Source of the DNA: Flavivirga eckloniae
GTDB taxonomy: Bacteria; Bacteroidota; Bacteroidia; Flavobacteriales; Flavobacteriaceae
NCBI RefSeq assembly: GCF_002886045.1
Contig: NZ_CP025791.1
Location: 1,758,001 to 1,822,000, forward strand
Reading direction: 5' to 3'
Length of the DNA stretch: 64,000 bases
The notes beneath the pieces are model-generated. The model searched no databases. It had not been told where the DNA came from and worked only from the letters and a program-made list of their open reading frames with translations. Positions 1 through 22,168 of this stretch are shown here, one piece after another. The first letter of the stretch is position 1; each line of letters starts with the position of its first letter. A program made the translations under genes and the position numbers.

Positions 1-3000
1 AGCCCTATCCCACTTCCGTTACTAAAATTTTGACTTGTTTCTATTTGAAAAAAACGTTCAAAAATAAGATTAGTATGTTTGGGTTCCATGCCGTATCCAT
101 TATCCTTTATTGAAAGGCAAACACGATCAATGTCATCATTTTTTGGTGAAATCTGAGAAATTGTAAAAGAGATTTCACCTCCATCTGGCGTGAATTTAAA
201 AGCATTTGATAAAAGGTTATAGAGTACAATTTCCATCTTATCTCTATCAAAATATACATGATCCAACTCTGTTTTATTACTAAAGTTATAAGTAATACCT
301 CTAGATTCTGCTAATTGACGAAAGGAAATAAAGGTCTCATTACAAAACTTTACAATGTCCCCTTTCGCAGCTCTTAGTTTTAACTGCCCTATTTCATCCT
401 TTCGGAAATCCATAATATTATTAACATGGCGCAATAATTTTTGAGCATTGGAACGTACTAGTGAAATTTCTTCTTTAATCCCTTCAATTAAATCTCCTTT
501 TTTTTGCAAAATATTATCTAAAGGCCCCAATATTAAGGTTAATGGAGTTCTAAGCTCATGAGAGATATTTGTAAAAAACCTAAGTTTTAATTCGTATATT
601 TCTTCGTCTTTTTCTCTTTCCTTTATTTCATTTTGCAATGCATTTCTATCATTAATTCTAAGACGCGCATATCTCCATAAAAGATACCCGATAAAAACAC
701 AAAGAATAAAGTACAATAAAAAAGCCCACCAGGTACTCCATGGCGGTGGCAATATTTTAATCTTGATAGAAGTTCCTGCCTCGTTCCACGTGTGACTATT
801 ATTTGACGCTTTTACCTTAAATACATAATCTCCAGATTCAATATTTGTAAAGGTGACTTGGCGCCTATTACCAATATGTAACCAATCGTCATTAAACCCT
901 TCAAGCATATAAGCATATTCATTTTTTTCTGGTTGAGAATAATTAAAACCTATAAACTCAAAGCTGAATAATGACTGATCATAACTTAAGATTATTTCCT
1001 GTGTTTGCGACAAAGGTTTGGTAAGAGGTGCATTTTCATCTCCTATTTTCACCGTCTTTTCGTCGATTTTAAATTCGGTAAGTATTACAGGTGGCGGGTT
1101 ATTATTTTTCTTTATTTCTTGAGGGTTAAATATATTAAACCCGTTAACCCCTCCAAAGATAAGCTCCCCATCACTGCTTATGGCATAGGCATCATAATTA
1201 AATTCATTACTTTGAAGTCCATCATGGATATCATAATTATCAAACGTTTTAAGATCCATATTAAATTTTGATAAACCGCCATGTGTACTTAACCATAAAT
1301 TCCCATAATTATCGGGAAGAATGCCATAAACCACATCACTAGGTAGCCCCTCATTTTTTCTATATTTAATAATGGTTGAGAGATCATTTTCTACATATAC
1401 TAACCCCTCTCCTTCTGTACCCAACCAATAATTACTTTTATTATCTTGATAAATACAAAGCACATTTTCATTTATAGACGCATTAATTTTATTAAAATGG
1501 TCATATAAAATCTCTCTTTTTTCAATATCAACAAGCCCTAGCCCATTAGACGATCCTACTAAAATTTCTTTTTTATAATTCTCAAAAATGGTAGTGATCC
1601 AAACATAACCTTCTTTCTTTTCAGGAAATCTAACAAACTGTTTTAATTTTGGATCAAACATATTGATACCTGTATAGGTACCCATCCAAATGTTTTGGTT
1701 ACTATCTTCTAAAAGTGTAAATACATAATTGGAACCAATACTTAAACTATCAGAAACATTATTTTTATAATGTTCGAATTTGGCAGGGCTTTTGTTTGGA
1801 TTAAAATAGTTTACACCACCTCCAAAAGTCGCTATCCATAAGTTCCCTTCATCGTCTTGAATAACATCATGAACATTATCCTCACTTAAACTGTTCTTAT
1901 TATTTTCATCATGTTTAAAGTTTATAAATGTTCCTTCAGATCTATTAAAATAATCCAATCCACCACCTTCGGTACCAATCCATAAATTTTTATTATGGTC
2001 TTCTACAAAAGCACTTACTACTGGATAACTAAGCCCAGAAGGTTCGCTATAATGATTAAAGGAATCAAAACTTTTATCTAAATAATTTACACCACCAGCC
2101 CATGTTCCAATCCATAAATTCCCAATACGATCTTCAAAAATGGCATGGATTGAATTTTTACTAATACTATAGGGATCATATTTATCATGTCTAATATGAT
2201 GTGTGGTTTTTTTATCTATATTATCTATATAAAGTCCTGTATAGGATCCTATTAATAAATTCCCTTCTTCATCTTCCCAAAGTGCTCTTATAGATACATT
2301 TTCTAATATATTATTGAACCCAAAATAGCTTACAAATTTATCCTCAGCATCGTTATAATGCCATAACCCTTCCGTATCTCCTACCCAAATACGCCCCTTG
2401 GAATCTTCTTTTATAGCACCTGATATATTTACTACGTTATTGTTACCTAAAGGATAATATTTAAATGAATTTTCTTTAGTATTATACTTTTCAACACCTT
2501 GATCGGTTATCATCCACAAAATACCCTTAGAATCTGCATAGATCTCTTTTATAAAATTACCCCTTAAACTATTCTCTATCCGATCATTATGAACATATCT
2601 TTTAAAATTCTTTAGCTCTCTATTATACTTATGAAGTCCATTATCTGTTCCTATCCAAAGTACATGGTCTTTATCTTCGCAAATAGATAATACCACATTA
2701 CCTGCTAAACTTGAGAAATCACTATCATCACTGTAATATTTTTCAAAACCAACCCCCTCAATGTACCTATTGAGTCCTTTTTTGGTACCTATCCATAATT
2801 CCCCCTTACTATCTGTGAAAACTGACTGTATTTGATTATGACTTAGACTCATATCATCTTCTGAGTCATGAAAGAAATTGGTGAAGTCAAAACCATCAAA
2901 ACGACTTATACCATTCCTGGTACCAAACCACATGAACCCTTTAGAATCTTGAGTAATACAAGGAATTGAAATACTGGGAAGACCATCAAAAATCGTGTAA

Positions 3001-3104
3001 TTTTTAAATTTCAAATCTCCGTCAATGGAAAAATTATCTTGACAATTTCCTCTTTGAGATAAAAATATAATAAAAAACAGTAAAAATAATTTTAAAGGTT
3101 TCAA
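1..3104 (-). CDS. Propeller-type hybrid two-component sensor kinase, 3' end cut by window edge
   Basis: The reading frame is open for 1034 codons from a TTG start to the window edge; an in-frame TAA lies just upstream and no ATG is available. The order is a signal peptide (about 1-22), a two-component-regulator propeller with many WIGT-type repeats (about 30-690), a Y_Y_Y-like domain, one membrane segment (about 785-810), and a histidine kinase with the H-box SHELRTPLT (phospho-His 849), an N-box near 963 and G-boxes DNGYGM and GSGIGL at the very edge. In Bacteroidota such proteins bind oligosaccharides in the periplasm and usually carry a receiver and an AraC HTH after the kinase; that part would lie outside the window, so the hybrid nature is inferred. 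It diverges from the lyase genes and is the likely regulator of the locus. Confidence 0.93.
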   Translation of the reverse strand, partial: MKPLKLFLLFFIIFLSQRGNCQDNFSIDGDLKFKNYTIFDGLPSISIPCITQDSKGFMWFGTRNGISRFDGFDFTNFFHDSEDDMSLSHNQIQSVFTDSKGELWIGTKKGLNRYIEGVGFEKYYSDDSDFSSLAGNVVLSICEDKDHVLWIGTDNGLHKYNRELKNFKRYVHNDRIENSLRGNFIKEIYADSKGILWMITDQGVEKYNTKENSFKYYPLGNNNVVNISGAIKEDSKGRIWVGDTEGLWHYNDAEDKFVSYFGFNNILENVSIRALWEDEEGNLLIGSYTGLYIDNIDKKTTHHIRHDKYDPYSISKNSIHAIFEDRIGNLWIGTWAGGVNYLDKSFDSFNHYSEPSGLSYPVVSAFVEDHNKNLWIGTEGGGLDYFNRSEGTFINFKHDENNKNSLSEDNVHDVIQDDEGNLWIATFGGGVNYFNPNKSPAKFEHYKNNVSDSLSIGSNYVFTLLEDSNQNIWMGTYTGINMFDPKLKQFVRFPEKKEGYVWITTIFENYKKEILVGSSNGLGLVDIEKREILYDHFNKINASINENVLCIYQDNKSNYWLGTEGEGLVYVENDLSTIIKYRKNEGLPSDVVYGILPDNYGNLWLSTHGGLSKFNMDLKTFDNYDIHDGLQSNEFNYDAYAISSDGELIFGGVNGFNIFNPQEIKKNNNPPPVILTEFKIDEKTVKIGDENAPLTKPLSQTQEIILSYDQSLFSFEFIGFNYSQPEKNEYAYMLEGFNDDWLHIGNRRQVTFTNIESGDYVFKVKASNNSHTWNEAGTSIKIKILPPPWSTWWAFLLYFILCVFIGYLLWRYARLRINDRNALQNEIKEREKDEEIYELKLRFFTNISHELRTPLTLILGPLDNILQKKGDLIEGIKEEISLVRSNAQKLLRHVNNIMDFRKDEIGQLKLRAAKGDIVKFCNETFISFRQLAESRGITYNFSNKTELDHVYFDRDKMEIVLYNLLSNAFKFTPDGGEISFTISQISPKNDDIDRVCLSIKDNGYGMEPKHTNLIFERFFQIETSQNFSNGSGIG

Positions 3105-3857
3105 GCTATCTGTCTTTATATGTGGTTAGTATGATTCAAATTTACACAAAATTACTTTTTCAAGGTTTTAAGAAAATATATTTGAATTTTATAAAACATT
3201 AACTTTTAAATGAAAGCCTGTTTTATAAAAAGCCTTACGCGTTAATAACAAACAAATACTGGCCAATATAAATTTTATAATATTTTTGAGCGACACTTTT
3301 TAGCATTTCAAAATTCTTATATTAAAATCTATATTATCAAAATCTTAACTTCCAAGACCATAAGTATAATGTGTAGTCACAAGTTCTAATTAATTTACAT
3401 TACCAAGAAGGTCTTATGTTTCCTATTAGGGGGGTGAAATAACCAAATAAAACAATACAACCTTTTCCTTTTAAAGGTTTTCCTTTAGGTAAGCAAAACA
3501 GAAATATCGTAAGCGCTTCCTTTTTAATCTCTATTATTAAGCAGGTGGTTGTAGCGTGCATTCTTACCAAATGATTGTGGTTTATTAAATAGTTTGTTTT
3601 TAAAACATGCTGTAAACAAAATTTTAAAGCATAAGGCTTCAACAAACGATAAACGACCTTCTGTTATTTACATTAAAACCCAAATTAAGCTTCAAACATA
3701 AAGCACATAACTCCTTACGAACGAATCATTTGCCCCTAAAAAAACAAAGGGCTTCTCTTACATTTATAAAAAACATTAAGCCTCAAAAAACAAATTACTT
3801 TCGGCAAAATGTTTTGTAATTTTTTAATTAAACTAAACAAACAAAACATCTTCAATT
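3105..3857. other. Divergent intergenic region between sensor kinase and first lyase
   Basis: This 753-base AT-rich gap has no convincing gene. An 81-codon minus-strand ORF inside it (3400-3645) has no recognisable family and no clear ribosome site. The supportable content is the conserved promoter-proximal element near 3711-3766 that drives the lyase. The rest presumably holds the sensor promoter, which I could not place. Confidence 0.5.
3711..3766 (+). promoter_or_regulatory. Putative locus operator and -7 box, copy 1
   Basis: The core GAATCATTTGCCCCTAA is followed 36 bases after its first base by TACATTTA, a variant of TAnnTTTG. A weaker half-site lies about 21 bases upstream of the CCCCTAA half-site. 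The same layout and the identical 36-base spacing recur before the genes at 5730 and 7418. An AraC-type output domain of the neighbouring sensor is the likely binder; that assignment is inference. Confidence 0.55.
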
Positions 3858-5444
3858 ATGAAAAAAACAAAATTACTTTTCTCATTCCTGATACTATTAT
3901 TAGTATCAACGTCTTTATCTGCACAAGTTTATATCGATGGCGAAAACGCTTCAATACGCCAGTCAGATGGGTATATTACCGACAATGGCCGTACTTTAAG
4001 ATGGCAAAATCAAGGTAATGGACAGGTTACTCCATGGATAACAGGCTATAATAGAGCAGGCTCTAAAGGTATAGGTATGCTAATTAATGGTACCTCGGGA
4101 ACAGGACCTCAACGTTCAGAATACTGTTTAAACGCTTGTTACCAAAGTGAACCTGCTATAAATAACGGTGAGACTTGGTATACTGGTTTTAGTTTTCAGT
4201 TAGATTCTAATACATGGGCCAATCCAACTTCATGGTTTGTACTTCAACAAACTCAACAAAGTAAATCAGCCGGCCAAGGAAACAACAACCCGTTTGTATC
4301 TTTTGATATCAAAAGCGGCAATAAACTGGATCTTAGAGCTGGTTCAGGGATAGATGGAGCCACTGGTTTAAGTTTTAAACACAAAGAAATCATCACAGTT
4401 CAAAAAGGTGTTTGGTATGATGTCGTAATAGGTTTTAAATTTAGTCCAAATAGCACCAATGGATGGATGGCTTGTTGGATAAAGACTAAAAATCAAAGTA
4501 ACTATACCAGATATGGTATGGATAACATTAAGGTAGGTTATACTAATGCCCCTCAACGAATACAACAAAACAAGATTGGAATGTACAGAAACTCGGTACC
4601 TGGAGCGAACAAATTGTATTTGGATGAGATAAGATTTTCAAAAACTTTAAGTGGTGCTAAAATCCCAGGCAGTAGTGGTGCAAGTAACACAGGCGGCAGT
4701 CAAACTGTAACTAATGGTATTTACTATATTCAAGACCCTGCTGGAAATATACGAATTAACAGCCCTAGTGGTAGAATTATTGACAAAGCAAAATCAAATA
4801 CCAAAAGTGCTAAGTGGCAAATTACTAAAGTTGGAAGTTATTATACAATTAAAAACCTGAGAAATGGTGAGTATTTAGAAGTGCCATATGCTGCGTGCAA
4901 CATAAATCAAAAACCACAGAACAAGAATGTTAATTTAGGGACTTGGACTTCATCAGGTAGCAATCATCAACGCTGGAATATTACAAAAAGTGGTTCTGAT
5001 TATTTCTTTAAACCCTTACACTGTAATAAAGTAATAGATAGGAATGGCAATGGGAATAATCCTATGCACTTATGGGTATCTCAATCAGGTAACAGCAACC
5101 AAAATTGGAGACTGATAGCCACTAATAGCTCAAAAAGTTTAAATGATAAGACTGAAATTGCTGACCCATCAATATCTACCGAGCCGGAGCCTGAGTCAAT
5201 TGATCAGGAAAAATTCATGATTTTCCCTAACCCTGTTAATGATGCGATTACGATTAGAATAAATTCAAACCCTAATACGAATGCCAAAATTTATTTATAC
5301 AATAATATTGGTAGCCTTATTAAAACAGAACCTCTTGAAAGCGATGATCAATCACTTAAGCTTAATGGATTATCTTCAGGAATTTATATTTTAGAAGTTG
5401 TGAATGGAAGTAATACTTATAGGCAAAAAATAATTAAAAAATAA
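3858..5444 (+). CDS. Secreted polysaccharide lyase with ricin-type CBM and T9SS tail
   Basis: A 528-residue protein with a signal peptide cleaved near residue 22 (LSAQ). Residues about 23-265 resemble the heparinase-I-like jelly-roll polysaccharide lyases (PF14099 type), with RSEYC and a GVWYDVV...W.KTK core. After a Ser/Gly linker, residues about 285-425 form a ricin/CBM13-like trefoil with repeated KWQI, RWNI and NWRL motifs. The last 75 residues are a Por-secretion tail (FPNPVNDAITIRI ... IYILEV). It should be exported by the type IX system and cut a uronic-acid-containing glycan at the cell surface or outside. The exact CAZy family and substrate cannot be fixed by eye. It is paralogous to the next gene. 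Confidence 0.85.
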   Translation: MKKTKLLFSFLILLLVSTSLSAQVYIDGENASIRQSDGYITDNGRTLRWQNQGNGQVTPWITGYNRAGSKGIGMLINGTSGTGPQRSEYCLNACYQSEPAINNGETWYTGFSFQLDSNTWANPTSWFVLQQTQQSKSAGQGNNNPFVSFDIKSGNKLDLRAGSGIDGATGLSFKHKEIITVQKGVWYDVVIGFKFSPNSTNGWMACWIKTKNQSNYTRYGMDNIKVGYTNAPQRIQQNKIGMYRNSVPGANKLYLDEIRFSKTLSGAKIPGSSGASNTGGSQTVTNGIYYIQDPAGNIRINSPSGRIIDKAKSNTKSAKWQITKVGSYYTIKNLRNGEYLEVPYAACNINQKPQNKNVNLGTWTSSGSNHQRWNITKSGSDYFFKPLHCNKVIDRNGNGNNPMHLWVSQSGNSNQNWRLIATNSSKSLNDKTEIADPSISTEPEPESIDQEKFMIFPNPVNDAITIRINSNPNTNAKIYLYNNIGSLIKTEPLESDDQSLKLNGLSSGIYILEVVNGSNTYRQKIIKK

Positions 5445-5620: not shown

Positions 5621-5675
5621 CCCCTATAATAAAATCATTTCTCCCTAATAAAAAAGGGGTTTTATCCTAAATTTG
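5621..5675 (+). promoter_or_regulatory. Putative locus operator and -7 box, copy 2
   Basis: Half-sites CCCCTATAAT (5621) and TCCCTAATAA (5642) are direct repeats spaced 21 bases apart, followed by TAAATTTG at 5668-5675, a perfect TAnnTTTG box. The distance from AAATCATT to the -7 box is 36 bases, as in copies 1 and 3. No TTTG is seen at -33, as expected for an activator-dependent promoter. Confidence 0.65.
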
Positions 5676-5729
5676 ATTAAAAATTAATCATTTACCAATC
5701 CTAATGCGGTTTTATAAAACCTCACTATT

Positions 5730-6947
5730 ATGAAAAAAACAAGACTATTTTTCTCTCTACTGATACTATTATTGGTGTCGACTTCTTTGTCGTCACAAGT
5801 TTTTATTGATGGCGAAGATGCATCTGTACGTCCTTCAGATGGATATATCACAGACAATGGTCGAACATTAAGGTGGCAAAATCAAGGCGATGGACAAAAC
5901 TTACCAAAAATAGAATCAAGTAAAAAAAGAGCTGGTTCTCATAGTGTAGCTTTCCAAATTGACGGTGCAAGCTCTGGTAGTACAAGTCAACGATCTGAAT
6001 ATTGTTTGAATGCTTGTTGGTCAACATCTGAGCCAGCAGTAAAAAGTGGTGACACTTGGTATACTGGTTTTAGCTTTCAATTAGATAATGATATATGGGA
6101 TAGCCCTACTTCATGGTTTTCAATTCAGCAAACGCAACAAAAAAAATCTACAGGTCAAGTAAACAATAACCCTTTTGTGTCTTTGGAGATAAAAAGTGGC
6201 AATGTACTTGACATTAGAGCAGGCTCTGGAAAAAACGGTGACAGCGGTCTAAAATTTACACATAAAGAACTCATTACACTAACAAAAGGAATTTGGTATG
6301 ACGCTATAATTGGCTGGAAATACAGTCCGAATACTACAGATGGATGGCTATCTCTCTGGATAAAAACAAAAGATCAAACTAACTATGTAAGATACAGTAT
6401 AGAAAACATTAAACTTGGTTACTCTGAAGCGCCTCAGCAAGTTAGTCAAAACAAAATTGGAATGTACAGGGGAAGAGTAACTGGTAATAATAAAATGTAT
6501 TTTGACGAAATTAGATTTGCTACCAATTTAGAGGATGCTAAAATAATCGACTTTCCTGACACCGATAAAGATGGCGTATTTGATATTAACGACACTTGCC
6601 CTAATACGCCTTCAGGAGCAGTAGTCGATGTTAAGGGATGCGAAGTGTTCTCATTGCCTAGTAACAACTTTAAGGTATTACATATTAGTGAGTCATGCCA
6701 CTCTAGTAATAATGGATCAATATCTATTGAAGCTATTCAAAATTTAAACTATACAGCTACATTATCTGGAGGAACTACAGCGTCTAAAAACTTTACCAAT
6801 AACGTATCTTTTGAAAATCTTGAGGCTGGCTCCTATAAAGTTTGTATCACAGTTGAAGGAGAAAACGATTATGAAGTTTGTTTTAACGCAACTATCACAG
6901 AACCTGAAGATATCACAGTAACTTCAAAAGGAGATCAAGGTAAATAA
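5730..6947 (+). CDS. Secreted polysaccharide lyase paralog, C-terminally shortened
   Basis: A 405-residue paralog of the previous lyase; signal peptide and catalytic domain (about 1-270) match it closely, including SDGYITDNGRTLRWQNQG. The trefoil is replaced by a thrombospondin-type-3/OmpA-like calcium repeat (DTDKDGVFDINDTCPNTPSG, about 278-297) and a flavobacterial module with the CHSSNNGSI motif. The protein stops at TEPEDITVTSKGDQGK. In related flavobacterial proteins this module usually runs on to a Por-secretion tail, so the tail seems lost. It may remain periplasmic or leave by another route. It has its own conserved upstream element, so it is probably transcribed separately. Confidence 0.82.
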   Translation: MKKTRLFFSLLILLLVSTSLSSQVFIDGEDASVRPSDGYITDNGRTLRWQNQGDGQNLPKIESSKKRAGSHSVAFQIDGASSGSTSQRSEYCLNACWSTSEPAVKSGDTWYTGFSFQLDNDIWDSPTSWFSIQQTQQKKSTGQVNNNPFVSLEIKSGNVLDIRAGSGKNGDSGLKFTHKELITLTKGIWYDAIIGWKYSPNTTDGWLSLWIKTKDQTNYVRYSIENIKLGYSEAPQQVSQNKIGMYRGRVTGNNKMYFDEIRFATNLEDAKIIDFPDTDKDGVFDINDTCPNTPSGAVVDVKGCEVFSLPSNNFKVLHISESCHSSNNGSISIEAIQNLNYTATLSGGTTASKNFTNNVSFENLEAGSYKVCITVEGENDYEVCFNATITEPEDITVTSKGDQGK

Positions 6948-7417
6948 TAATAAATCTTAAAAAAGAGGCTCTTTACTAAAGGAAAGACGATTCTTTTAAT
7001 ATAATTTAAAGTATTCAATTTCACTATAAAATACTGATTATTAGTATTATAAATATTTTATATTAGAAACGCCCTCCTTAATCCTCCCTCGAGGGAACTT
7101 TAGGGGTATCTTCAATGTAACTAATTAAAAATCAATAACCATTAAATCAAACTCATATTAATTTGTTATTAAGCAACTACATAACTATAAAACAACTTAA
7201 TTTTAATTCTCATATCTAAAGCCCCTATAATAGAATCATTTACCCCTAATAAAAAAGAGGTTTTACTTCAAATTTGGTTGAAAATTAATCGCACTAACCA
7301 TAAAACACCAAAGCTTACAAACACATTTTGTTAAAAGCACTTTATTTTATGGCTAAGTGATTCCTAATTAGATTTTACAAACCAAAACTTTAATTAACTC
7401 TATAATAGCTCTAAAAT
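6948..7417. other. Intergenic region with third operator copy
   Basis: This 470-base gap has no gene. It contains a short palindrome CCCTCGAGGG near 7086-7097 of the sort found in flavobacterial intergenic repeats, and the third copy of the operator/-7 element at 7222-7276. There is no strong hairpin with a T-run after the lyase stop. Confidence 0.5.
7222..7276 (+). promoter_or_regulatory. Putative locus operator and -7 box, copy 3
   Basis: Half-sites CCCCTATAAT (7222) and CCCCTAATAA (7243) are 21 bases apart. CAAATTTG at 7269-7276 is one mismatch from TAnnTTTG and lies 36 bases after the start of GAATCATT, exactly as in the other two copies. The leader to the next ATG is about 140 bases. 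Confidence 0.62.
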
Positions 7418-8641
7418 ATGAATAGAAGGAAATTTATACAAAATTCAGCTTTAGCGACAGTTGGGGCTTCGCTAATAAGTAATCATGCAAACGCGAATAT
7501 GTCGCCCAGCATAACTGAAAAAAAGGATCTGGATAAAATTAAATCAAGCGATGCCTTTAAGTATTACAAAGACAGAGCAGCTGGCTGTTATTTTGGTGCA
7601 GCAATTGCTGATGCTATGGGAGGCCCTCCTGAATTTATCCATTACAAACGACGCGAGCGCGACTTTGGTTGGGTCAAAGGGTTTCTAGAATACAAAACAC
7701 CACCCGGACATGGCACTATTGGTCCTGGCTATGCTTTACATACACGCGCCGGTTCTATTACAGATGACACTTTTATTCGAGCTGATTGCACCCGTTTTTA
7801 CTTGAATGTGAAGCCACCCTATACGGCACATAAAATGGCTCACTATTTCCTTAAGAACGCTGATTTTTCTAATTGGTGGACGGTAGCAGTAAAAGCATTA
7901 CGTCGTGTAGAGAGCGGTGAAGTTTCAGCCGAAGACGCTGGCTTTAAACATCAACAAGGCGGCGGTGGTGCTTGGTGGCAACCAGTGTCTATTCTTAATG
8001 CGGGCGATCCTTTGGCAGCATCCAACGAGGTTTCCAATCTATGCCGTATATGGAAGGCTCCGTTAGAACGAGATATCCTCTCTTCTGTAGTGGCAGGACA
8101 AGCTGCTGCTTATAAAAAGGGTTCTACAGTAGATTCTGTTATTAATGCTGTATTGGATGATTCTGGCCCCTTAGCTAAAAAATTATTTGAACGCGCTTTA
8201 GACATTGCTAAAAAAGCGAATTCACCTCAGGAATTATATAAAAATCTATATGCCAAAGCTATGGTGGATGAAGTTTCGACTGAGATTGATGGTCCTATGC
8301 CCAAACCGATGAAAGATGTATATGTAGAAGGTGGTTATGGAGGTGTAAAATTTGCTGAACAACAACCATGGGCTTTGGCTTATTTCCTTTATGGCAATGG
8401 CGATCCAGAAAAAACAGTTCTCACTGCAATTAATGGTGGGCGTGACTCTGATAGTATTGCTTCAAACGCGGCCAGTTGGTTGGGTGCTCTTTATGGTGAG
8501 TCTATTTGGCCAAAAGAATGGGTTGACACTGTACAAGAAGCAAACCTGATTGAAATGGATATCCGTGGCTTGCTGGATCAACTCGTAGATCTTGGGGTAC
8601 GTAATGGTACAGTTGCAATAATTAATAACTACGACATTTAG
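7418..8641 (+). CDS. Tat-exported ADP-ribosylglycohydrolase-fold protein
   Basis: A 407-residue protein that begins with a twin-arginine signal (RRKFIQ, then a hydrophobic stretch to about residue 26). Residues about 50-395 have the ADP-ribosylglycohydrolase (ARH/DraG) fold signature: GCYFGAAIADAMGG at 56-69, the metal-binding TDDT at 115-118 and GRDSDS ending at 346, so both metal sites look intact. Classical members remove ADP-ribose, but this one is exported and sits in a glycan locus. It is more likely a hydrolase of a glycosidic or related bond in the locus substrate; that is inference. It heads a probable operon: the next gene starts 29 bases after its stop. Confidence 0.85.
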   Translation: MNRRKFIQNSALATVGASLISNHANANMSPSITEKKDLDKIKSSDAFKYYKDRAAGCYFGAAIADAMGGPPEFIHYKRRERDFGWVKGFLEYKTPPGHGTIGPGYALHTRAGSITDDTFIRADCTRFYLNVKPPYTAHKMAHYFLKNADFSNWWTVAVKALRRVESGEVSAEDAGFKHQQGGGGAWWQPVSILNAGDPLAASNEVSNLCRIWKAPLERDILSSVVAGQAAAYKKGSTVDSVINAVLDDSGPLAKKLFERALDIAKKANSPQELYKNLYAKAMVDEVSTEIDGPMPKPMKDVYVEGGYGGVKFAEQQPWALAYFLYGNGDPEKTVLTAINGGRDSDSIASNAASWLGALYGESIWPKEWVDTVQEANLIEMDIRGLLDQLVDLGVRNGTVAIINNYDI

Positions 8642-8670: not shown

Positions 8671-10086
8671 ATGAAAAATAGACTCCTAACAATTCTCCTT
8701 TTAGTATTACCAATAATTAGCTCAGCTCAAGGCTTGAAGCGTGAGTATTTAAAAGATCAAATTCATGATGATAATCGTACAAGACCACTGCATGTAATTC
8801 CTTCTGGTGGAAACTATATGGCACCGCCTTCTGATGCAATTATATTATTTGATGGTACTAACACCGATGCATGGGAAGGCAATTTTACCATTATTGATAG
8901 TACGCATATGGCGGCTGCAGAAGGTGGGTTAAAATCCAAACAAGCTTTTGGCGATATGCAGTTGCATGTGGAATGGCGCATTAACGATGCTTTAAAAGTA
9001 AACGGTCAAATGGGTGGTAACAGCGGAATATTTTTAATGGGGCTTTATGAAGTGCAAGTTTTAGAGAACTTCTTAAATGAAACCTATGCCGATGGTCAGG
9101 CTGGTGCTGTGTACGGACAATTCCCTCCTTTAGTAAATGCATCTGCACCACAAGGAAACTGGAATAGTTATGATATTTTCTTTAAGGCACCTATTTATAA
9201 AAATGGTAAAGTCGTAAAAAAAGCAGCCGTTACTGTACTATTTAATGGCGTTATAGTGCAATTTAATCAGGAATTTGAGGGGCCAACAAAATATAAGAAG
9301 GTGACCTCTTATCCTGAAAATCATCCTAAAAAAGCACCACTAAGCCTCCAGTATCATGGTGATCCCGTTGAGTATCGCAACATATGGGTAAGAGATATTG
9401 CTGTTACCGAAGAAGATACGTCTAAAAAGAAATTGGAGTGGATAAATCTATTTGAAGAAGGTAAAGAAGGCATTGATTATGTAACCACAAGTAGAGATAA
9501 AGATCCAAATGCACAACAACACTTTAAAGTTGTAGATAATAGAATTGAAGTCTTGTATGACTGGGTTGGAGAGGAAGCTCCTTTCGCCTTGATTTCTACA
9601 AAGAAGACATTTAGTTCTTTTAATATGGAATTGGAATATAAATGGGGAGAACGCAAATTTGCGCCACGTAAGGAAGTGAAACGTGATGCTGGTATTCTCT
9701 TTCACGTGCATAACGAAGTCGTTGTATGGCCAAGTAGTATTGAATGCCAGATTCAAGAAGAAGATACTGGAGATTTATGGGTAATAAAAGGACCTAAAGT
9801 AACAGTAGTTGAGAAAAACGGAAATCATAAAGTTATAGACACTAAGGTAGAAAACTATAAATCACACAGAAGATACGATCTTTTTGAAGTTGAAGGTTGG
9901 AATCATGTTCGGGTAGAAGTTCGAGGCTCTGAATCGGCGCGTTTTTATGTGAATGGTCATCTTGTAAATGAGGTACTTAATATGACTGATCGTGAAGGGA
10001 AAAAACTAAAGGAAGGTTTTATATCACTTCAGGCTGAAGGCGCTGAGATAATCTATAGAAATATACGTTTGCAAGAGGTACACTAA
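8671..10086 (+). CDS. Secreted protein with two DUF1080 (3-keto-disaccharide hydrolase) domains
   Basis: A 471-residue protein with a signal peptide (ISSAQ, about 1-19). Two concanavalin-like DUF1080 domains follow: about 55-250 (start ILFDGTNTDAWEG, core GGNSGIFLMGLYEVQVLEN) and about 258-470 (start WINLFEEG, core DAGILFHVHNEV). Family members are described as acting on 3-keto-glycosides and are common beside Gfo/Idh/MocA oxidoreductases, as here (13468). The role suggested is cleavage of a glycan link after oxidation of the sugar at C3. It lies between the ARH-like gene and the GH27 gene with short gaps, so it is probably co-transcribed. Confidence 0.83.
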   Translation: MKNRLLTILLLVLPIISSAQGLKREYLKDQIHDDNRTRPLHVIPSGGNYMAPPSDAIILFDGTNTDAWEGNFTIIDSTHMAAAEGGLKSKQAFGDMQLHVEWRINDALKVNGQMGGNSGIFLMGLYEVQVLENFLNETYADGQAGAVYGQFPPLVNASAPQGNWNSYDIFFKAPIYKNGKVVKKAAVTVLFNGVIVQFNQEFEGPTKYKKVTSYPENHPKKAPLSLQYHGDPVEYRNIWVRDIAVTEEDTSKKKLEWINLFEEGKEGIDYVTTSRDKDPNAQQHFKVVDNRIEVLYDWVGEEAPFALISTKKTFSSFNMELEYKWGERKFAPRKEVKRDAGILFHVHNEVVVWPSSIECQIQEEDTGDLWVIKGPKVTVVEKNGNHKVIDTKVENYKSHRRYDLFEVEGWNHVRVEVRGSESARFYVNGHLVNEVLNMTDREGKKLKEGFISLQAEGAEIIYRNIRLQEVH

Positions 10087-10142: not shown

Positions 10143-11546
10143 ATGAACAAACAACAAAGACAGCTTTCAAGCTTAATTATACTAATCCTCTTTTCGCTTA
10201 CAATCAACAGTAACCTAAATGCTCAAAACGCTTATAGAACAGCTACTCCCTTTCTAGGTTGGAATAGTTACAATGCATACGGCTCATATATTAACGAGCA
10301 ACAAACCTATGCGAACCTAGATGCATTCATCCAGAAACTGAAACCACATGGCTATGAATACTTTGTCCTCGATGCTGGTTGGTACAGAGATTACGATTTA
10401 AAGCCGGGAGAAAGTTGGCCTACAGATGGGGATAAAGCAAATTTAACTCTTGATAAATACGGACGTTATACGCCTTCTAAAGTTCTTTTTCCAAACGGGC
10501 TAAAACCAATAATAGATTATGCACATAAACATGGAATAAAATTCGGATTACATATGATGCGGGGCGTTCCACGAGAAGCAGTGGAAAGAGACCTACCTAT
10601 TAAAGACTCTAAATATTCTGCAAAAGATATTGCAAATAAAGAAGATAGCTGTAGTTGGAGTGTTCTAAATTATGGCATTGATATGAATAAGCCAGGATCA
10701 CAAGAATACTATGACAGCATGTTGGAACTACTTGCCGAATGGGGAGTAGATTTTATAAAATACGACGACATTGTGCACAAGCCAGACGAAATTGTTGGAG
10801 TTGCTGATGCCATAGAAAAAACGGGGCGAAAAATTATGTTGAGTATTTCTCCTGGCGATGAAGAATACCCTAAGTTTTTTGAAGTTTATCACAGAGCCGA
10901 TATGATTAGAATGACACGGGATATATGGGACTTAAAAGAAGACATAGATATCACGTTTGAAACTTGGGAAAAAATTATCCCTCATGCTGGAAAAGGCTAT
11001 TGGTTAGATATGGATATGCTCCCTTTTGGCCACATTAGACTAAATCACCCTTTAACAAAAAACAAGTTAAAAACTACCAGAGGCTACGAACGCATGGATA
11101 ATCTTAGCTATCCACAAAAAAAGACGTTTATTACCCAGCGCGCCATGGGAGCTTCCCCCTTGTTTATGGGAGGCGAATTAACAAGTTCACCTAACGCTGT
11201 TTTTGAATTAATTACAAATCCTGATATGTTAGCGTGTAACCAAAATGGCATAACCGGCGAATTGGTTACAAGAATCTCAACTTACGAAGTAAGGTTAGAT
11301 ATTTGGAAAACGCCAAATAAAACCAAAGAAAATGAAGGATGGATAGGCGTTTTTAATCGTAATGGGTACAAAGAGTTAATTAAGATTAGTAAAGAACAAC
11401 TTGGTTTAAACAACAAGCTGTCTTATGGTTTATATGATATTTGGGGAAAACAAATGATTGAAGATACTGGATCAGAATTACTTTTTGAAATACCTGCTGA
11501 GGATGTTATTTTCATTCGTTTTAAAGAAAGAAAAAGCAATAAATAA
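10143..11546 (+). CDS. Secreted GH27-type alpha-galactosidase
   Basis: A 467-residue protein with a signal peptide (about 1-28, LNAQ). The GH27/melibiase barrel opens with TPFLGWNSYNAYG (35-47) and FVLDAGWY. The nucleophile is expected at Asp208 in FIKYDDI. The C-terminal beta domain carries the usual WIGVFNRNG line. It should remove terminal alpha-galactose (or a related sugar such as N-acetylgalactosamine or arabinopyranose, which the family also covers) in the periplasm. It lies 56 bases after the DUF1080 gene and shares its probable operon. Confidence 0.87.
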   Translation: MNKQQRQLSSLIILILFSLTINSNLNAQNAYRTATPFLGWNSYNAYGSYINEQQTYANLDAFIQKLKPHGYEYFVLDAGWYRDYDLKPGESWPTDGDKANLTLDKYGRYTPSKVLFPNGLKPIIDYAHKHGIKFGLHMMRGVPREAVERDLPIKDSKYSAKDIANKEDSCSWSVLNYGIDMNKPGSQEYYDSMLELLAEWGVDFIKYDDIVHKPDEIVGVADAIEKTGRKIMLSISPGDEEYPKFFEVYHRADMIRMTRDIWDLKEDIDITFETWEKIIPHAGKGYWLDMDMLPFGHIRLNHPLTKNKLKTTRGYERMDNLSYPQKKTFITQRAMGASPLFMGGELTSSPNAVFELITNPDMLACNQNGITGELVTRISTYEVRLDIWKTPNKTKENEGWIGVFNRNGYKELIKISKEQLGLNNKLSYGLYDIWGKQMIEDTGSELLFEIPAEDVIFIRFKERKSNK

Positions 11547-11605
11547 CTCGATTTAAAAGCAGTCTAATTTTAACGATAAATACACTAAAAATGTTACTTG
11601 TCACC

Positions 11606-11666
11606 TTGAGCGCAGTCGAAAGGTCATTAAAACCTATAATTTTAAATAGGTTTCGACTGCGCTCAA
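11606..11666. repeat. REP-like inverted repeat, possible terminator
   Basis: Perfect 16-base arms TTGAGCGCAGTCGAAA (11606-11621) and TTTCGACTGCGCTCAA (11651-11666) enclose 29 bases. The arm resembles a dispersed flavobacterial intergenic repeat; a related half (CTTCGACTACGCTCAG) occurs near 46791. Its place after the GH27 stop suggests transcript end protection or termination. Confidence 0.8.
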
Positions 11667-11828
11667 CCCGACACTTAAATTAAATCACTGGCATTCAGTA
11701 TAATAATATTATGGTTACGTCGAGTTAAATAACATGAGCTACTTTTAATTCATATAAAAAATTGTTCATTGAACATAAAATCAATACAATATATTCTTTA
11801 TATTCTTTGACCATCTTAACATAAATAA

Positions 11829-13343
11829 ATGAGAAAAAATATTTTCATAACACTATTTTGTCTGTCTATTATTCTTAGTGCATGTAAAACTAATGAAGAA
11901 GAAACAGTAAGTAAAACTGAAACAACATATGAACCAAATTGGGAATCACTCTCAAAACATAATCAATCTCCCGAATGGTTAGCCGATGCCAAACTAGGTA
12001 TTTATTTTCATTGGGGAGTATATTCTGTACCTGCCTATGGTTCTGAGTGGTACCCATTTCAGATGTATAGAAATACTAACACCTCAAAGCATCACATTAA
12101 AACTTATGGTCCATTATCTGAATTTGGCTACCATGATTTTGTACCCATGTTTAAAGGGGAAGCATTTGACCCAGAAGAATGGGCTGAGCTTTTTAAAAAT
12201 ACTGGAGCAAGATTTGCGGGACCTTCCGCACAACACCATGATGGCTTTGCCATGTGGGACAGCAAAGTAAACCCATGGAATTCAGCAGACAAAGGTCCAA
12301 AACAGGACATTACAGGGAAACTAGAAAAGTCAATCAAATCAAGAGGTATGAAGTTTATCACCACTTTTCATCATGCCAGAAACTTGCAGCGTCACAATGG
12401 TGATCCCAAAGAATGGGACACCTACAATAGTCACTTCGCTTATGGACCAGATTTCCCAACGTCTTCCACAGATTCTATCCTTTCAAAATTATACGGTAAT
12501 ATTCCAGAAAAGGAATTTAATCAATATTGGTTTGACCAATTAAAAGAGGTCATTGACCAATATTCTCCAGATATTATTTGGTTTGATTCATGGCTAAAAT
12601 TAATTCCACAAGAGCATCGTAAAAAGTTTGCCGCATATTATTTAAATGAGGCTAAAAAGAAAAAACAAGAGGCTGTAATTGTTTACAAACAACAAGATAT
12701 CCCTAGCTCTGTTGGTGTTTTAGATATTGAACAAGGTGGTAAAAAAGATTTATCTGAGTCGGTTTGGCTAACAGATGTTACGCTTAGTACTGGGTCATGG
12801 TCGTATACCGATGGTCAAACCTATAAACCTGCCGAATTGGTCGTTCGTAATATGATTGATGTTTGGAGCAAAAATGGTATTGTGCTCCTTAATATATCTC
12901 CTAAAGCTAACGGAGTAATTAATCAAGAACAACGCAGTATTCTTGCCAAGATAGGAGAATGGATGAAAAAACATGAAGAAGCGATTTATGAAACAAGACC
13001 TTTTGGTGTTTACGGATTTGGTAAAGCCAAATCAGAAGATGGTCACTTTGGAGGGCAATCGGCAACCATTGAATACACTAAAGATGATGGTCGGTTTTTA
13101 AAATCTAAAGATGGGAAATACCTTTATCTTTTTATGCTTGGTAAACCTGAGGTTGGTAGCATAATAGATATTGGAGTATTAGCACGACATACTTTTTATC
13201 CAGAACAAGGCGTGAAAAAAGTAACAGTATTAGGAAGCAACGTTGAAGCAAAATGGCATTTTGCAAAACGTAACTTTATACTTACTGTGCCTGATGCAAC
13301 AATGGATGATATTGCTACTGTTTTTAAGTTTGAACTGAACTAG
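11829..13343 (+). CDS. GH29 alpha-L-fucosidase lipoprotein
   Basis: A 504-residue protein with a lipoprotein signal (SIILSAC, lipidated Cys19). The GH29 barrel has LGIYFHWG (56-63), HHDGFAMW (136-143) and the nucleophile region IIWFDSW with the expected Asp253. The C-terminal part is a beta-sandwich. It should release alpha-L-fucose from oligosaccharides while anchored in a membrane; the residues after the cysteine (KTNEEE) are acidic, which in Bacteroidota can favour surface display. It is separated from the GH27 gene by 282 bases containing a REP-like hairpin, so it may have its own promoter. Confidence 0.9.
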   Translation: MRKNIFITLFCLSIILSACKTNEEETVSKTETTYEPNWESLSKHNQSPEWLADAKLGIYFHWGVYSVPAYGSEWYPFQMYRNTNTSKHHIKTYGPLSEFGYHDFVPMFKGEAFDPEEWAELFKNTGARFAGPSAQHHDGFAMWDSKVNPWNSADKGPKQDITGKLEKSIKSRGMKFITTFHHARNLQRHNGDPKEWDTYNSHFAYGPDFPTSSTDSILSKLYGNIPEKEFNQYWFDQLKEVIDQYSPDIIWFDSWLKLIPQEHRKKFAAYYLNEAKKKKQEAVIVYKQQDIPSSVGVLDIEQGGKKDLSESVWLTDVTLSTGSWSYTDGQTYKPAELVVRNMIDVWSKNGIVLLNISPKANGVINQEQRSILAKIGEWMKKHEEAIYETRPFGVYGFGKAKSEDGHFGGQSATIEYTKDDGRFLKSKDGKYLYLFMLGKPEVGSIIDIGVLARHTFYPEQGVKKVTVLGSNVEAKWHFAKRNFILTVPDATMDDIATVFKFELN

Positions 13344-13467: not shown

Positions 13468-14820
13468 ATGTATAACAATAGAAGGAATTTTATAAAGAAA
13501 TCATCATTAGCTTTAGCAGGAACCAGCGCTGCGTTATTATTTCCAATGGATTTATTAGCTAAAATCAGAAAAACAGTAGGTCCAAACGACCGTATAAACG
13601 TAGGCTTAATCGGTTGTAAAGGCATGGGATTTTGGAATCTAACTTGCATGCTTAAGATGAGTAACATTAGTGTTATTGCACTTTGTGATGTAGATGAGAA
13701 TATATTAAAAAAGAGAACTGCAGATTTAGAAAAGGCTGGTATTAAAAAACCAAAATGGTATAACGATTATAGAAAATTATTAGAAAACAAGGATATAGAT
13801 GTTGTAATAATTGGCACGCCAGACCATTGGCATTGTTTGCAATTAACTGATGCTTTGGACGCTGGTAAAGATGTGTATTGCGAAAAGCCTATTGCAAACT
13901 CTATCCAAGAGGCAGATATCATGCTTAATCGTGTACAGTCTAGTGATAACATAGTTCAAGTCGGACAATGGCAACGTAGTTTACCGCATTTTGCTGATGC
14001 TATAAACTATGTGCATTCGGGTAAACTAGGAAAAATACGCTTGGCCAAAGTTTGGGCATATCAAGGTTGGATGGAGACCATTCCTGTGGTTCCAGATAGT
14101 CCTGTTCCAAATGGTGTAGATTACAAAATGTGGTTAGGACCGGCAACTCAAAGACCTTTTAATAAAAATAGATTTCATTTTAATTTTAGATGGTATTGGG
14201 ATTACGCTGGTGGCTTAATGACAGACTGGGGCGTACATCTTATGGATTATGCATTATATGGTATGAAAGCTGGTTATCCTAAATCTGTAATGGCCTTAGG
14301 AGGCAAATTTGCTTATCCAAATGATGCGGCAGAAACACCAGACTCCCTACAGGCTGTTTATGAATATGATGATTTTTCTATTCTATGGGAACAAGCTACA
14401 GGTATAGATGGAGGACCTTATGGAAAAACACATGGTATCGCTTTTATAGGAAATAATGGTACTTTGGTATTAAATCGTGATGGTTGGGAAGTTATTCATG
14501 AAAATGAACATAGTGGTTGGTCTGGTCCTAAAGTTCCTCGTATGGAAAGCATTCCGCATCAGGGCAACCAAAACGTAAATGGCACAGAGCTACATACTAA
14601 AAACTTTATTGAAGCAGTAAAAAGTAGAGATCGTTCTATTTTAAAAGCGCCTATAAAAGTAGGATATGATGCCGCTGTGGTTTGTCATATGGGCAATGTT
14701 GCTTATAAGACAGGCAATAGGATTTATTGGGATGCTGAAGCAGGAAAATTTAAAGAAAAAGAGGCCAATAAATTCGCAAAAGCAAATTATCAAAACGGAT
14801 GGGTACTGCCAAAAGTATAA
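13468..14820 (+). CDS. Tat-exported Gfo/Idh/MocA family oxidoreductase
   Basis: A 450-residue protein with a Tat signal (NRRNFIK then a hydrophobic run ending near residue 31). The Rossmann motif VGLIGCKGMG is at 45-54, GTPDHWH at 116-122 and the EKP triplet at 139-141, with the usual GGLMTDWGVHLMD segment. Exported members carry tightly bound NAD(P) and are folded before export, which explains Tat. In glycan loci they oxidise or epimerise sugars or hydrolyse glycosides by a redox mechanism. It pairs logically with the DUF1080 protein upstream. Gaps of 124 and 182 bases separate it from its neighbours. Confidence 0.88.
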   Translation: MYNNRRNFIKKSSLALAGTSAALLFPMDLLAKIRKTVGPNDRINVGLIGCKGMGFWNLTCMLKMSNISVIALCDVDENILKKRTADLEKAGIKKPKWYNDYRKLLENKDIDVVIIGTPDHWHCLQLTDALDAGKDVYCEKPIANSIQEADIMLNRVQSSDNIVQVGQWQRSLPHFADAINYVHSGKLGKIRLAKVWAYQGWMETIPVVPDSPVPNGVDYKMWLGPATQRPFNKNRFHFNFRWYWDYAGGLMTDWGVHLMDYALYGMKAGYPKSVMALGGKFAYPNDAAETPDSLQAVYEYDDFSILWEQATGIDGGPYGKTHGIAFIGNNGTLVLNRDGWEVIHENEHSGWSGPKVPRMESIPHQGNQNVNGTELHTKNFIEAVKSRDRSILKAPIKVGYDAAVVCHMGNVAYKTGNRIYWDAEAGKFKEKEANKFAKANYQNGWVLPKV

Positions 14821-15002: not shown

Positions 15003-16457
15003 ATGAAAAGAGTCACTTTAATTATCTTAATAGCAGCATTTAACTTACTATTTATACAACCAATCAAGGCAGAGATTAAACTTCCTGCTATTGTATCGTC
15101 AAATATGGTTTTACAGCGCAATACCACCATTGTACTTTGGGGTTGGGCTGATGCTAAAGAGAAAATTACCATCAATGCCTCTTGGTTAGGTGAACCAATT
15201 AACCTAGAAGCAGATAAAGAAGGGAGTTGGCGTATTGAAGTAAAAACGACCGACAGTAAGGCTCCTCAATCCATTAATATAAATAGTAAAACTTCAAATA
15301 TTACATTAGACAATGTTTTATTTGGAGAGGTTTGGCTATGTTCTGGTCAATCGAATATGCAACAGTCTGTAAGGGGGTATGACGGGCAACCAACATTTGG
15401 TTCTGCTATGGCAACAGCAAAATCTAATAATGTCAATTTACGCCTTTTTAGTGTTGATAGAGTTGGTTCAAAAACGCCATTAAGAAATATAGAAAAATTT
15501 AAAGGTTGGCAACAAGCATCGCCACTTAGTGTTACAAACTTTAGTGCAGTAGCATATTTCTTTGGTCAGCAACTTCAAGAAATTTTAGGTTGTCCTGTGG
15601 GTATGATACATACTTCTTGGGGCGGAAGCACCGTGCAGGCTTGGATGAGTAAGGAAGCGCTTGGTCCTCATCAAAATATTAATCTAGATGATGTAGATAT
15701 CACAGAGAGGACAAATCATATCCCTACAGCATTGTTTAACTCCATGATTAATCCATTGATTCCTTATACAATAAAAGGAGTATTATGGTATCAAGGCGAG
15801 AGTAATCATAAAGAACCTGAGAAGTACAAAACACTCTTTCCTGCTATGGTAAAAGATTGGAGAACACGTTGGAGCATTGGTGATTTTCCATTTTATTATG
15901 TGCAAATTGCCCCATTTCATTATGGAAATAATGATGTATTTCAAACGGTTAACAATACTGCTTTTATGCGAGAAGCACAATTGCAATGTCTAGATTTAAT
16001 TCCAAATTCTGGAATAGCCATTACCATAGATATTGGAGAAGAAAACTACATTCACCCACCAAAGAAAAAGGAAGTTGCAGATAGGCTATTGTTTAATGCA
16101 CTTAACCAAACCTATGACTATAAAACTATAGATTACGCTGCTCCAATATATGATTCACTAGAATTAAAAGACGGAGGCATCCTCCTAAAATTTAAAAATG
16201 CTGAGACGGGATTGTATTCTTATAATGAGTTAACGGGATTCGAAATTGCGGGAGATGATAAAATATTTTATCCAGCCGTCGCCAAAATTGTAAAACGTAA
16301 GCATGTATTTGCTATTAGCGACAAAGTACCTAATCCCGTAGCGATTAGATACGCCTGGAAAAATTGGATAGTTGGTACCCTTTACGATGCTAATCTTTTA
16401 CCTGCCTCATCTTTTAGAACCGACAACTGGGATGATGCTACACAAGTTAAAAAATAA
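15003..16457 (+). CDS. Sialate O-acetylesterase-type SGNH esterase
   Basis: A 484-residue protein with a signal peptide (about 1-23, IKAE). The SGNH nucleophile block is CSGQSNM (Ser117), followed by the GMIHTSWGGS block, LWYQGESN, and the His block YIHPPKKKEVADRL. The family (DUF303/SASA) removes acetyl groups from sugars, not only from sialic acid. With no sialidase nearby, de-acetylation of the locus glycan is the better guess. It is the last gene of the locus. Confidence 0.88.
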   Translation: MKRVTLIILIAAFNLLFIQPIKAEIKLPAIVSSNMVLQRNTTIVLWGWADAKEKITINASWLGEPINLEADKEGSWRIEVKTTDSKAPQSININSKTSNITLDNVLFGEVWLCSGQSNMQQSVRGYDGQPTFGSAMATAKSNNVNLRLFSVDRVGSKTPLRNIEKFKGWQQASPLSVTNFSAVAYFFGQQLQEILGCPVGMIHTSWGGSTVQAWMSKEALGPHQNINLDDVDITERTNHIPTALFNSMINPLIPYTIKGVLWYQGESNHKEPEKYKTLFPAMVKDWRTRWSIGDFPFYYVQIAPFHYGNNDVFQTVNNTAFMREAQLQCLDLIPNSGIAITIDIGEENYIHPPKKKEVADRLLFNALNQTYDYKTIDYAAPIYDSLELKDGGILLKFKNAETGLYSYNELTGFEIAGDDKIFYPAVAKIVKRKHVFAISDKVPNPVAIRYAWKNWIVGTLYDANLLPASSFRTDNWDDATQVKK

Positions 16458-21199: not shown

Positions 21200-22168
21200 T
21201 TAGTTACAATTTTTACCACCATCGGCAACGGTCCAGCCAAAATCATTGATTAATTTATTTCTCCCGGCTTCTCCATTACAAAAAGTAGTGTTACCTACGC
21301 TAAGTCTTACTCCTTTTTGCAGTGTAAGTTTACTCCAGCTTTCCAGGATCTCATCATAATTCTCGCTAGAAAGTGTAACATCTCTAAACATACTTGACAT
21401 ATTGGTTACTTCTGACACATCCCAGCTACTAATATTATTACCATTAAAACTGGTAACATTTTCAAACATAGAACTCATGTCTGTTACCTTTGAGAGATCT
21501 GGTGCATCTGAAGCATTGATTTGTAAATCCCTACATCCCATAAAAGCAAATTGCATAGAGGTCCATACCTGATTGCCCCATTGTTCTACACTTTGTATTC
21601 TTCGACTGATGCTGCTTGATCCATTATTATAAACTCTTGGAAAATCTCCAGTTATAGAAACGGTATAGGTACCTGCCGTGGCATAACCATGGGTTGCATC
21701 GCCCGTTTGGTTAATACTAGTAGTATCGTCTCCCCAGTTTACAGTATAGTTGTAAGTTTCTCCCTTATATGTAGGTATAGTAATAAATTCGTTATTTCTT
21801 AAGGTTTTCCAGGTTGTTATAAAAGCAGTAGAAGGGTTACTCTTCACAGTTACCGTATACTTTTGTATTGAGCCATCTTCGGCTGTAACGGTAAACTCTA
21901 CAGGGTTTGTGTAATCTCTAGCTACTGCAGGGTCTGGTAAAATGGTGGCGTTGTCTGACAATTCCACCTCAGCTTTTAGAGAGGTTTTGTCTGTACCTGC
22001 TGGCAATGTAATCTCCAGTGCGCTATCTTGTTGGTTTACTGTGGCTTTAACATCATTTATGGTAAATGCTATAAGCTCTTTTGCTTCACTTCTTTTTACG
22101 TCTTCTTTTGAACAAGAAGCAATAAACATTAATAATAATGCAATTAGGGGTATTCTAAATATATTCAT
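21200..22168 (-). CDS. DUF285 (BspA-like) lipoprotein, 1 full repeat
   Basis: A 322-residue lipoprotein (LIASCSKED; lipidated Cys about 19 with acidic residues after it). One DUF5018/cadherin-like domain (about 25-108), a PKD-like domain with YTVNWGDDTT and THGYATAGTYTVSITGDFPR, then the 25-residue DUF285 region with a single full WDVSEVTNMSSMF repeat, and the shared C-terminal WSKLTLQKG / CNGEAGRNKLINDFGW module. It is the most diverged array member. The start follows the previous gene's stop by 38 bases, a spacing repeated throughout the array. Confidence 0.85.
   Translation of the reverse strand: MNIFRIPLIALLLMFIASCSKEDVKRSEAKELIAFTINDVKATVNQQDSALEITLPAGTDKTSLKAEVELSDNATILPDPAVARDYTNPVEFTVTAEDGSIQKYTVTVKSNPSTAFITTWKTLRNNEFITIPTYKGETYNYTVNWGDDTTSINQTGDATHGYATAGTYTVSITGDFPRVYNNGSSSISRRIQSVEQWGNQVWTSMQFAFMGCRDLQINASDAPDLSKVTDMSSMFENVTSFNGNNISSWDVSEVTNMSSMFRDVTLSSENYDEILESWSKLTLQKGVRLSVGNTTFCNGEAGRNKLINDFGWTVADGGKNCN

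Follow-up and report, generated by a model that had tools for sequence, protein, structure and literature searches.

Members of the ARH superfamily are studied as enzymes that erase ADP-ribosylation, and the annotation names attached to Pfam family PF03747 follow that use. In ARH structures, an N-G-x-x-M-R loop binds ADP-ribose; we take the position of this loop to be beside ARH3 residues Phe143 and Ser148. Published work describes a two-metal center, coordinated in ARH3 by Thr76, Asp77, Asp78, Asp314, Asp316, and Thr317 (PMC8141533), with Ser305 at the last ligand site in ARH1 (PMC9738213). For binding to be correct, the ligand must offer cis hydroxyls at 2″ and 3″ and the two metals must both be present; selectivity is for the α-1″ linkage, and adenosine contacts vary greatly between true ADP-ribosyl hydrolases (PMC7050489). 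Mutation of the adenine-coordinating ARH3 residues Phe143 or Ser148 nearly abolishes activity (PMC8319183). A full-text search, with subscription journals mostly outside its coverage, returned titles and opening abstracts that mention no exported ARH-fold glycan hydrolase.

An exported-type ARH-fold protein in a polysaccharide locus

We analysed a 64,000-nt stretch of Flavivirga eckloniae DNA (the window; contig NZ_CP025791.1, positions 1,758,001 to 1,822,000), in which an ORF on the + strand at 7418–8641 encodes the protein P0001 (ATG start, 407 codons of protein, 0 internal stops). Residues 56–367 of P0001 score 100.6 bits with the PF03747 (ADP_ribosyl_GH) model, whose cut-off is 26.2, a margin so wide that the family match is not due to chance, and P0001 is the sole match to PF03747 in the 5.67-Mb genome. 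The N-terminus, MNRRKFIQNSALATVGASLISNHANA, reads by eye and by a crude hydropathy script as a twin-arginine-like signal, with a putative signal peptide comprising residues 1–26 and ending in A-N-A (7418–7495, +). An AlphaFold model built from a 10-row alignment has a pTM of 0.75 and a mean pLDDT of 69.8, with pLDDT below 50 at residues 76–90, 92–113, and 177–182, which surround the active-site loops. Structure search groups the model with MJ1187, DraG, and ARH3: the best Foldseek match is to MJ1187 (1t5j; 9.3e-7), which is also the best match in a single-sequence PDB search (7e-11), and VIA-align gives Z scores of up to 27.5, to ARH3 (6g1q_B; rmsd 3.7, 293 residues); absence of a family from these match lists carries no evidential weight. 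P0001 falls below the cut-off of both NCBIfam equivalog models tried, reaching 38.8 of the 490 bits required for Tri1 and 33.6 of the 337 required for DRAG. P0001 is a member of PF03747 and of the ARH fold, and is filed here outside the ADP-ribosyl hydrolases. The intact ORF, the family score, and the structural match bear out the original prediction of an exported-type ARH-fold protein, and the N-terminus agrees with the Tat signal that it proposed.

The metal center of P0001 is complete. In particular, alignments place the two-metal ligand set (T/S-D-D and D-x-D-T/S) at T115, D116, and D117 of motif 1 (T115-D116-D117-T118; 7760–7771, +; ligand roles from PMC8141533) and at D343, D345, and S346 of motif 2 (R342-D343-S-D345-S346; 8441–8455, +), so that both Asp-rich motifs are intact, as had been predicted. 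The Glu flap is E72 (7631–7633, +), the equivalent of ARH3 Glu41 and DraG Glu28 (role from PMC7050489). The ADP-ribose loop is replaced: by alignment and pattern count, residues 181–189, GGGGAWWQP (7958–7984, +), take the place of N-G-x-x-M-R, with W186 at the position of the loop Arg, a residue present in each of the four different solved proteins whose alignments were inspected (N-G-x-x-M-R in DraG, close variants in MJ1187, Lmo0067, and 6dre). The Thr-His motif is absent from P0001, the aligned stretch being R-I-W-K-A-P, with no His.

We scored the loop as the pattern [NG][GASN][AGST][AGSILVCT][ML]R at any place in the protein, across 104 Bacteroidota proteins assigned by hand to exported or cytosolic type from a tree and their N-termini (the crude script finds a signal in 42 of the 43 exported-clade proteins, all except L079, and marks some cytosolic N-termini too). 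The pattern occurs in 35 of 60 cytosolic-type proteins versus 0 of 43 exported-clade proteins, and is absent from P0001 (Fisher p 1.5e-11, uncorrected for kinship; the proteins are kin, so this value overstates the contrast). Because the pattern is also missing from 25 of the 60 cytosolic-type proteins and adenosine contacts are variable, loss of the loop is no proof of a new substrate. As read from the sequence, substrate recognition by P0001 differs from that of ADP-ribosyl hydrolases: the metal center is intact but the part that grips ADP-ribose is altered, so a sugar bond may be cut instead.

The ARH gene sits within a locus of SusCD, regulator, and carbohydrate-active enzyme genes. Upstream lie a sensor-kinase-type regulator truncated by the window edge (3–3104, −; Reg_prop, Y_Y_Y, and HisKA by Pfam), a PF14099 polysaccharide lyase with a ricin-type lectin and a T9SS tail (3858–5444, +; Pfam and NCBIfam), and a second PF14099 lyase, identified by Pfam and nucleotide identity as a tandem relative of the first (5730–6947, +), with no PDB match at E ≤ 0.01. 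Downstream, all on the + strand and assigned by Pfam, lie a protein of the DUF1080/3-keto-disaccharide hydrolase family with two domain stretches, whose nearest solved chain is 4qhz (8671–10086); a GH27-like protein whose nearest solved chain is a β-L-arabinopyranosidase (10143–11546; 3e-72); a GH29-like protein whose nearest solved chains are an α-L-fucosidase and an exo-α-L-galactosidase (11829–13343); a Gfo/Idh/MocA protein with a Tat-like N-terminus (13468–14820; also NCBIfam), which scores 167 of 750 bits, below cut-off, with the glycoside 3-dehydrogenase model; and a SASA-type carbohydrate esterase (15003–16457). Beyond the window edge, Pfam identifies in the left flank a TonB receptor and SusD_RagB proteins, together with KDPG aldolase, creatininase, ROK, FAD oxidoreductase, SDR, SIS, and GntR proteins. 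The predicted company of lyases, glycosidases, and an esterase is thus confirmed by Pfam. The polymer addressed by the locus is probably uronate-containing, because the locus combines PF14099 lyases with KDPG aldolase. Characterised DUF1080 proteins include a 3-ketotrehalose hydrolase and an endo-xanthanase/lichenase (PMC9007349). A search of 199 family genomes with the DUF1080 protein at E ≤ 1e-60 gave one match beyond its own genome, a separate protein resembling the C-terminal half (54%), in another genus and beside GH29 and two sulfatase genes; our script called no ARH homolog within 20 kb of this stand-alone relative.

Several further features of the DNA were observed. The two lyase genes share 81% (170 nt) and 74% (300 nt) identity in two stretches (3855–4447 and 5727–6328). 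The signal regions of the ARH gene (7416–7455) and the Gfo/Idh gene (13472–13511) are 80% identical over 40 nt. The gap between the GH27 and GH29 genes contains an inverted repeat (11594–11678), perhaps a terminator, whose 39-nt arms (77%) are separated by 7 nt. Farther along the window are a run of DUF285/DUF5018 proteins (21200–26218) and a run of leucine-rich-repeat proteins (33157–37604).

Gaps of 29 nt from the ARH gene to the DUF1080 gene and 56 nt from there to the GH27 gene, followed by 282 nt to the GH29 gene, indicate that the ARH gene leads a putative ARH-DUF1080-GH27 run with operon-like spacing. Ahead of the ARH gene is a 69-nt element (7222–7290, +) that is 86% identical to a 69-nt element ahead of the second lyase gene (5621–5689, +; E 4e-19 among intergenic stretches). 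The first lyase gene is preceded by a 28-nt core, 86% identical to the ARH copy (3723–3750, +), and a 56-nt copy (87.5%) lies in the left flank (L060:1736–1790) ahead of a T9SS/DUF4955 gene that starts at 1859. With copies thus standing before four genes in the locus, the element could function as an operator or a leader, or could be left over from duplication. Of the "locus operator" in the original prediction, the repeat shared by the ARH gene and three others is present in the DNA, and operator function is one role that such a repeat might have.

Relatives of P0001 and their gene neighborhoods

No close homolog of P0001 was found in the other genomes searched (11 of the genus, 396 of the family, 294 of the class, and 394 of the phylum, in overlapping samples), and the glycan-gene link of P0001 itself therefore rests on one genome. 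With its own genome included, the search gave matches in 3 of 12 genus, 38 of 397 family, and 54 of 395 phylum genomes, and at E ≤ 1e-5 the 295 class genomes gave a single match, P0001 itself; the best non-self match reached 7.8e-7 among family genomes and 1.2e-17 among phylum genomes (~30% identity). Genome contigs gave no match to the single P0001 sequence and nine loci to profile A1, and viral contigs gave no match. PF03747 itself matched 82 of 247 phylum genomes at 106 places, of which 83 were listed and 80 regions fetched, 10 of the 80 being without a called ARH ORF (L062 and L080 are the same place, as are L063 and L082). Four ARH-family genes stand in a row at each of two loci, L125 and L127, in two genomes of different families.

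In a tree of 104 proteins, P0001 joins three Tat-signal proteins with a support of 88 and a long-branch warning. These three, from Kapaibacterium, Microscillaceae, and Thermochlorobacteriaceae MAGs (L080, L081, and L082), are 24–26% identical to P0001; identity to L080 is 60% for L081 and 63% for L082. All three loci contain GH28, no more than three genes from the ARH gene, and MR_MLE; two of the three contain GH2, and one adds SSF and MFS transporters and mannitol-dehydrogenase-type and altronate-dehydratase-type proteins. MR_MLE (enolase superfamily) proteins with Tat-like N-termini occur near the GH28 and ARH genes at L080 (8536–9756 and 17310–18542) and L082 (2977–4194 and 11242–12468), and seem to be exported enzymes of the sugar-acid dehydratase type. 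Searches with a Tat-type profile gave no match at E ≤ 1e-15 in 82 genomes, a sample without a positive control; one match in 98 genomes, the genome G520 itself; two at E ≤ 1e-12 in 167 genomes, the genome of L081 and G1132 (1.2e-20, on a short contig); and four in 102 genomes, only that in G665 being strong and full-length.

We took a census of neighboring genes by phmmer with chosen queries, over at most ~20 kb per locus, in loci of unequal length and related sources, leaving out L077, L120, and L134. Genes for macro-domain proteins or NAMPT occur in 11 of 51 loci of cytosolic type and in none of the 41 of exported type (p 9e-4, with macro and NAMPT queries drawn from the cytosolic-type loci L068 and L077), a contrast retained when the locus that gave the macro query is removed (10 of 50 versus 0 of 41, p 0.002) and when unused loci are added to the cytosolic side (12 of 63 versus 0 of 41, p 0.003). 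The Sir2 query yielded no sequence by its motif and added nothing to the counts, though the Pfam listing shows three Sir2 neighbors. Glycan genes, with Gfo/Idh and SASA excluded, occur in 15 of 41 exported-type versus 6 of 51 cytosolic-type loci (p 0.006) with queries partly from exported-type loci (GH28, GH2, MR_MLE, GH32, PfkB, nucleoside hydrolase, APH, PNP, and one SusD query were drawn from these), in 15 of 41 versus 10 of 63 (p 0.02) when all unused loci are added, and in 9 of 41 versus 6 of 51 (p 0.26) when queries are restricted to proteins of the window, its flank, and L182. The last comparison weakens the proposal that exported ARH proteins are generally tied to glycan genes. By class, glycan genes in the census are found with Tat proteins in 3 of 3 loci, long C/F forms in 6 of 13, class A lipoproteins in 6 of 13, and class B in 0 of 12. 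Exported ARH genes were not found with NAD or ADP-ribose genes, and the Tat trio lies in glycan loci; both observations are firm.

With the window's own proteins as phmmer queries, DUF1080 genes were found near 0 of 41 exported-type ARH genes and Gfo/Idh genes near 2 of 41. The conserved link to DUF1080 and Gfo/Idh genes that the original prediction had put forward does not hold at these counts, and we dropped the pair as a marker of the exported ARH class.

Pfam neighbor lists, drawn from within three genes of each ARH gene and read for the 25 most frequent families in each, differ between classes. Among these families, C/F neighbors (n = 62) include SusD_RagB (3), sulfatase (3), PfkB (3), Melibiase_2 (2), Gfo/Idh (2), and a nucleoside symporter (1); class A neighbors (n = 76, of 78; A5) include APH kinase (8), GH32 (4), and PNP (3); and cytosolic-type neighbors (n = 107, of 129; A6) include Macro (4), Sir2 (3), NAPRTase (2), GH65 (1), and GH97 (1). 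For class B (n = 69), the 25 most frequent of 125 families include pyrophosphatase (3) and Gfo/Idh (2) and no polysaccharide genes. A nucleoside hydrolase gene lies near an exported relative at L083. Because neighbors vary by class in this manner, exported ARH proteins seem to differ in role, several of them resembling ribose or nucleoside salvage proteins. The expectation that ADP-ribose-type substrates would not be met outside the cell was therefore too strong, exported ARH genes being found near ribokinase-type, nucleoside hydrolase, PNP, and nucleoside transporter genes. In the class A loci, an APH-type kinase is present in 9 of 13 and GH32 in 4 of 13, and lipoprotein ARH genes (L071–L076, for example L072:8713–10859) abut or overlap the APH-type kinase gene.

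Outside Bacteroidota, 24 plasmid records have an ARH match, and we inspected three regions. A Halalkalicoccus relative adjoins two genes of the mandelate racemase family; an Ensifer relative lies in a carbohydrate ABC operon with a second ARH gene adjacent; and the Nonomuraea plasmid region carries no annotation at that place. In the Halalkalicoccus and Ensifer proteins the loop Arg is missing and metal site 2 is G-R-D; reading by eye found no export signal in either.

Candidate function and comparison with known systems

The reading that we favor, at somewhat less than even confidence, is that P0001 is a Tat-exported periplasmic two-metal glycosidase acting on oligosaccharides of the locus. 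P0001 would be exported by the Tat route to the periplasm, where it would work beside the DUF1080 protein and the GH27-like protein. The lyases of the locus would release oligosaccharides from a uronate-type polymer, and P0001 would then cut a glycosidic bond using two metals, Mg or Mn, held on the ARH fold; the upstream repeat may co-regulate P0001 with the other genes of the locus. Because the metals and Asp side chains of ARH3 hold the cis 2″ and 3″ hydroxyls of an α-linked ribose, we guess that the sugar released may have a cis diol adjoining its anomeric carbon. R342 could, as a further guess, hold a carboxylate; Arg is also present at this place in the Tat relatives and in 12 of 13 class A lipoproteins. 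Periplasmic export, catalysis, repeat-driven co-regulation, and substrate are all what we infer for P0001.

The proposal of a glycan hydrolase made in the original prediction is in part sustained: the metal ligands are retained and other residues stand in place of the loop and the Thr-His motif, macro or NAMPT genes are absent from exported-type loci (0 of 41 versus 11 of 51), and the Tat relatives have GH28 and MR_MLE in 3 of 3 loci; that exported ARH proteins as a whole are linked with glycan genes is not shown (p 0.26). More tentatively, and as a possibility that we regard as doubtful, P0001 and the Tat trio may be the first members of a class of ARH-fold, two-metal glycosidases that has so far escaped notice; exported and encoded in glycan loci, these enzymes would have lost the ADP-ribose loop, kept the metal center, and would cleave α-type bonds of cis-diol sugars, perhaps uronic acids.

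It is unlikely, though worth serious weight, that P0001 is instead a salvage enzyme present in the locus by chance, releasing ribose or a ribosyl group from compounds outside the cell that resemble nucleosides or ADP-ribose. Exported relatives near PfkB (3 of 62 C/F neighbors) and a nucleoside symporter (1 of 62; both among the 25 most frequent families), the nucleoside hydrolase at L083, and the class A neighbors APH (8 of 76) and PNP (3 of 76) all speak for salvage; we also count here an ARH protein that we take to lie in a ribose locus of Bacteroides thetaiotaomicron. Around P0001 itself, however, Pfam named neither a PfkB ribokinase nor a nucleoside hydrolase or transporter in the subset of ORFs scanned, although the left flank contains a ROK-family protein that may be a sugar kinase, and the three Tat relatives are near GH28. 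P0001 is also improbable as a conventional ADP-ribosyl hydrolase that works beyond the cytoplasm on proteins or glycans bearing ADP-ribose: family, fold, and every metal ligand match such an enzyme, but the loop and Thr-His motif are replaced, the protein falls far under the Tri1 and DRAG cut-offs, and the searched part of its locus has no macro-domain or NAMPT match.

Two further explanations have still lower probability in our estimate. P0001 might be a relative without catalytic activity that has retained fold and metals and serves in sugar binding or as a structural protein, since ARH2 is suspected to be inactive (PMC7050489) and ARH-like chains are present in organelle complexes among the structure matches; the retention of all metal ligands and of the Glu flap argues against this. 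The gene might, at a similarly small probability, have been acquired recently from a foreign source and have no fixed function in the locus. Its G+C content (0.426, versus 0.353–0.374 in neighboring genes) and the absence of a close homolog from the 11 other genus genomes are consistent with capture, but its third-position G+C is like that of its neighbors (0.304, versus 0.241–0.308), and the tight spacing to the DUF1080 and GH27 genes and the shared upstream element also speak against capture.

If exported, loop-less members do cut glycans, some "ADP-ribosylglycohydrolase" labels are misleading, metal-dependent chemistry joins polysaccharide breakdown, and the ARH superfamily widens from NAD biology to glycan biology. 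The contrast in residues makes the glycan reading testable with a few purified proteins.

Compared with known systems, P0001 shares with ARH3 the fold, the two-metal ligands, and the Glu flap, and differs from it in appearing to be exported and in having the loop and Thr-His motif replaced, at 16% identity in structural alignment. DraG has the fold and metal motifs in common with P0001, but its N-G-A-A-M-R loop is lost in P0001, which scores below the DRAG cut-off. MJ1187 (1t5j) begins at the domain, with no signal, and keeps G-A-A-M-R, whereas P0001 has a Tat-like signal and lacks that motif. YegU of the Escherichia coli yegTUV operon resembles P0001, by description in PMC10819704, as an uncharacterised ARH-family gene linked to sugar metabolism, and differs in that its operon has a nucleoside-type transporter and a sugar kinase. 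The Tat trio shares with P0001 a Tat-like signal, ADAMGG..E, TDDT, YGNGD or YGEGD, GRD at metal site 2, and a place in polysaccharide loci. The trio differs in having Glu as the second Asp of motif 2, where P0001 keeps Asp; in keeping His at the Thr-His position, where P0001 has none; and in a GH28 context, where that of P0001 is PF14099.
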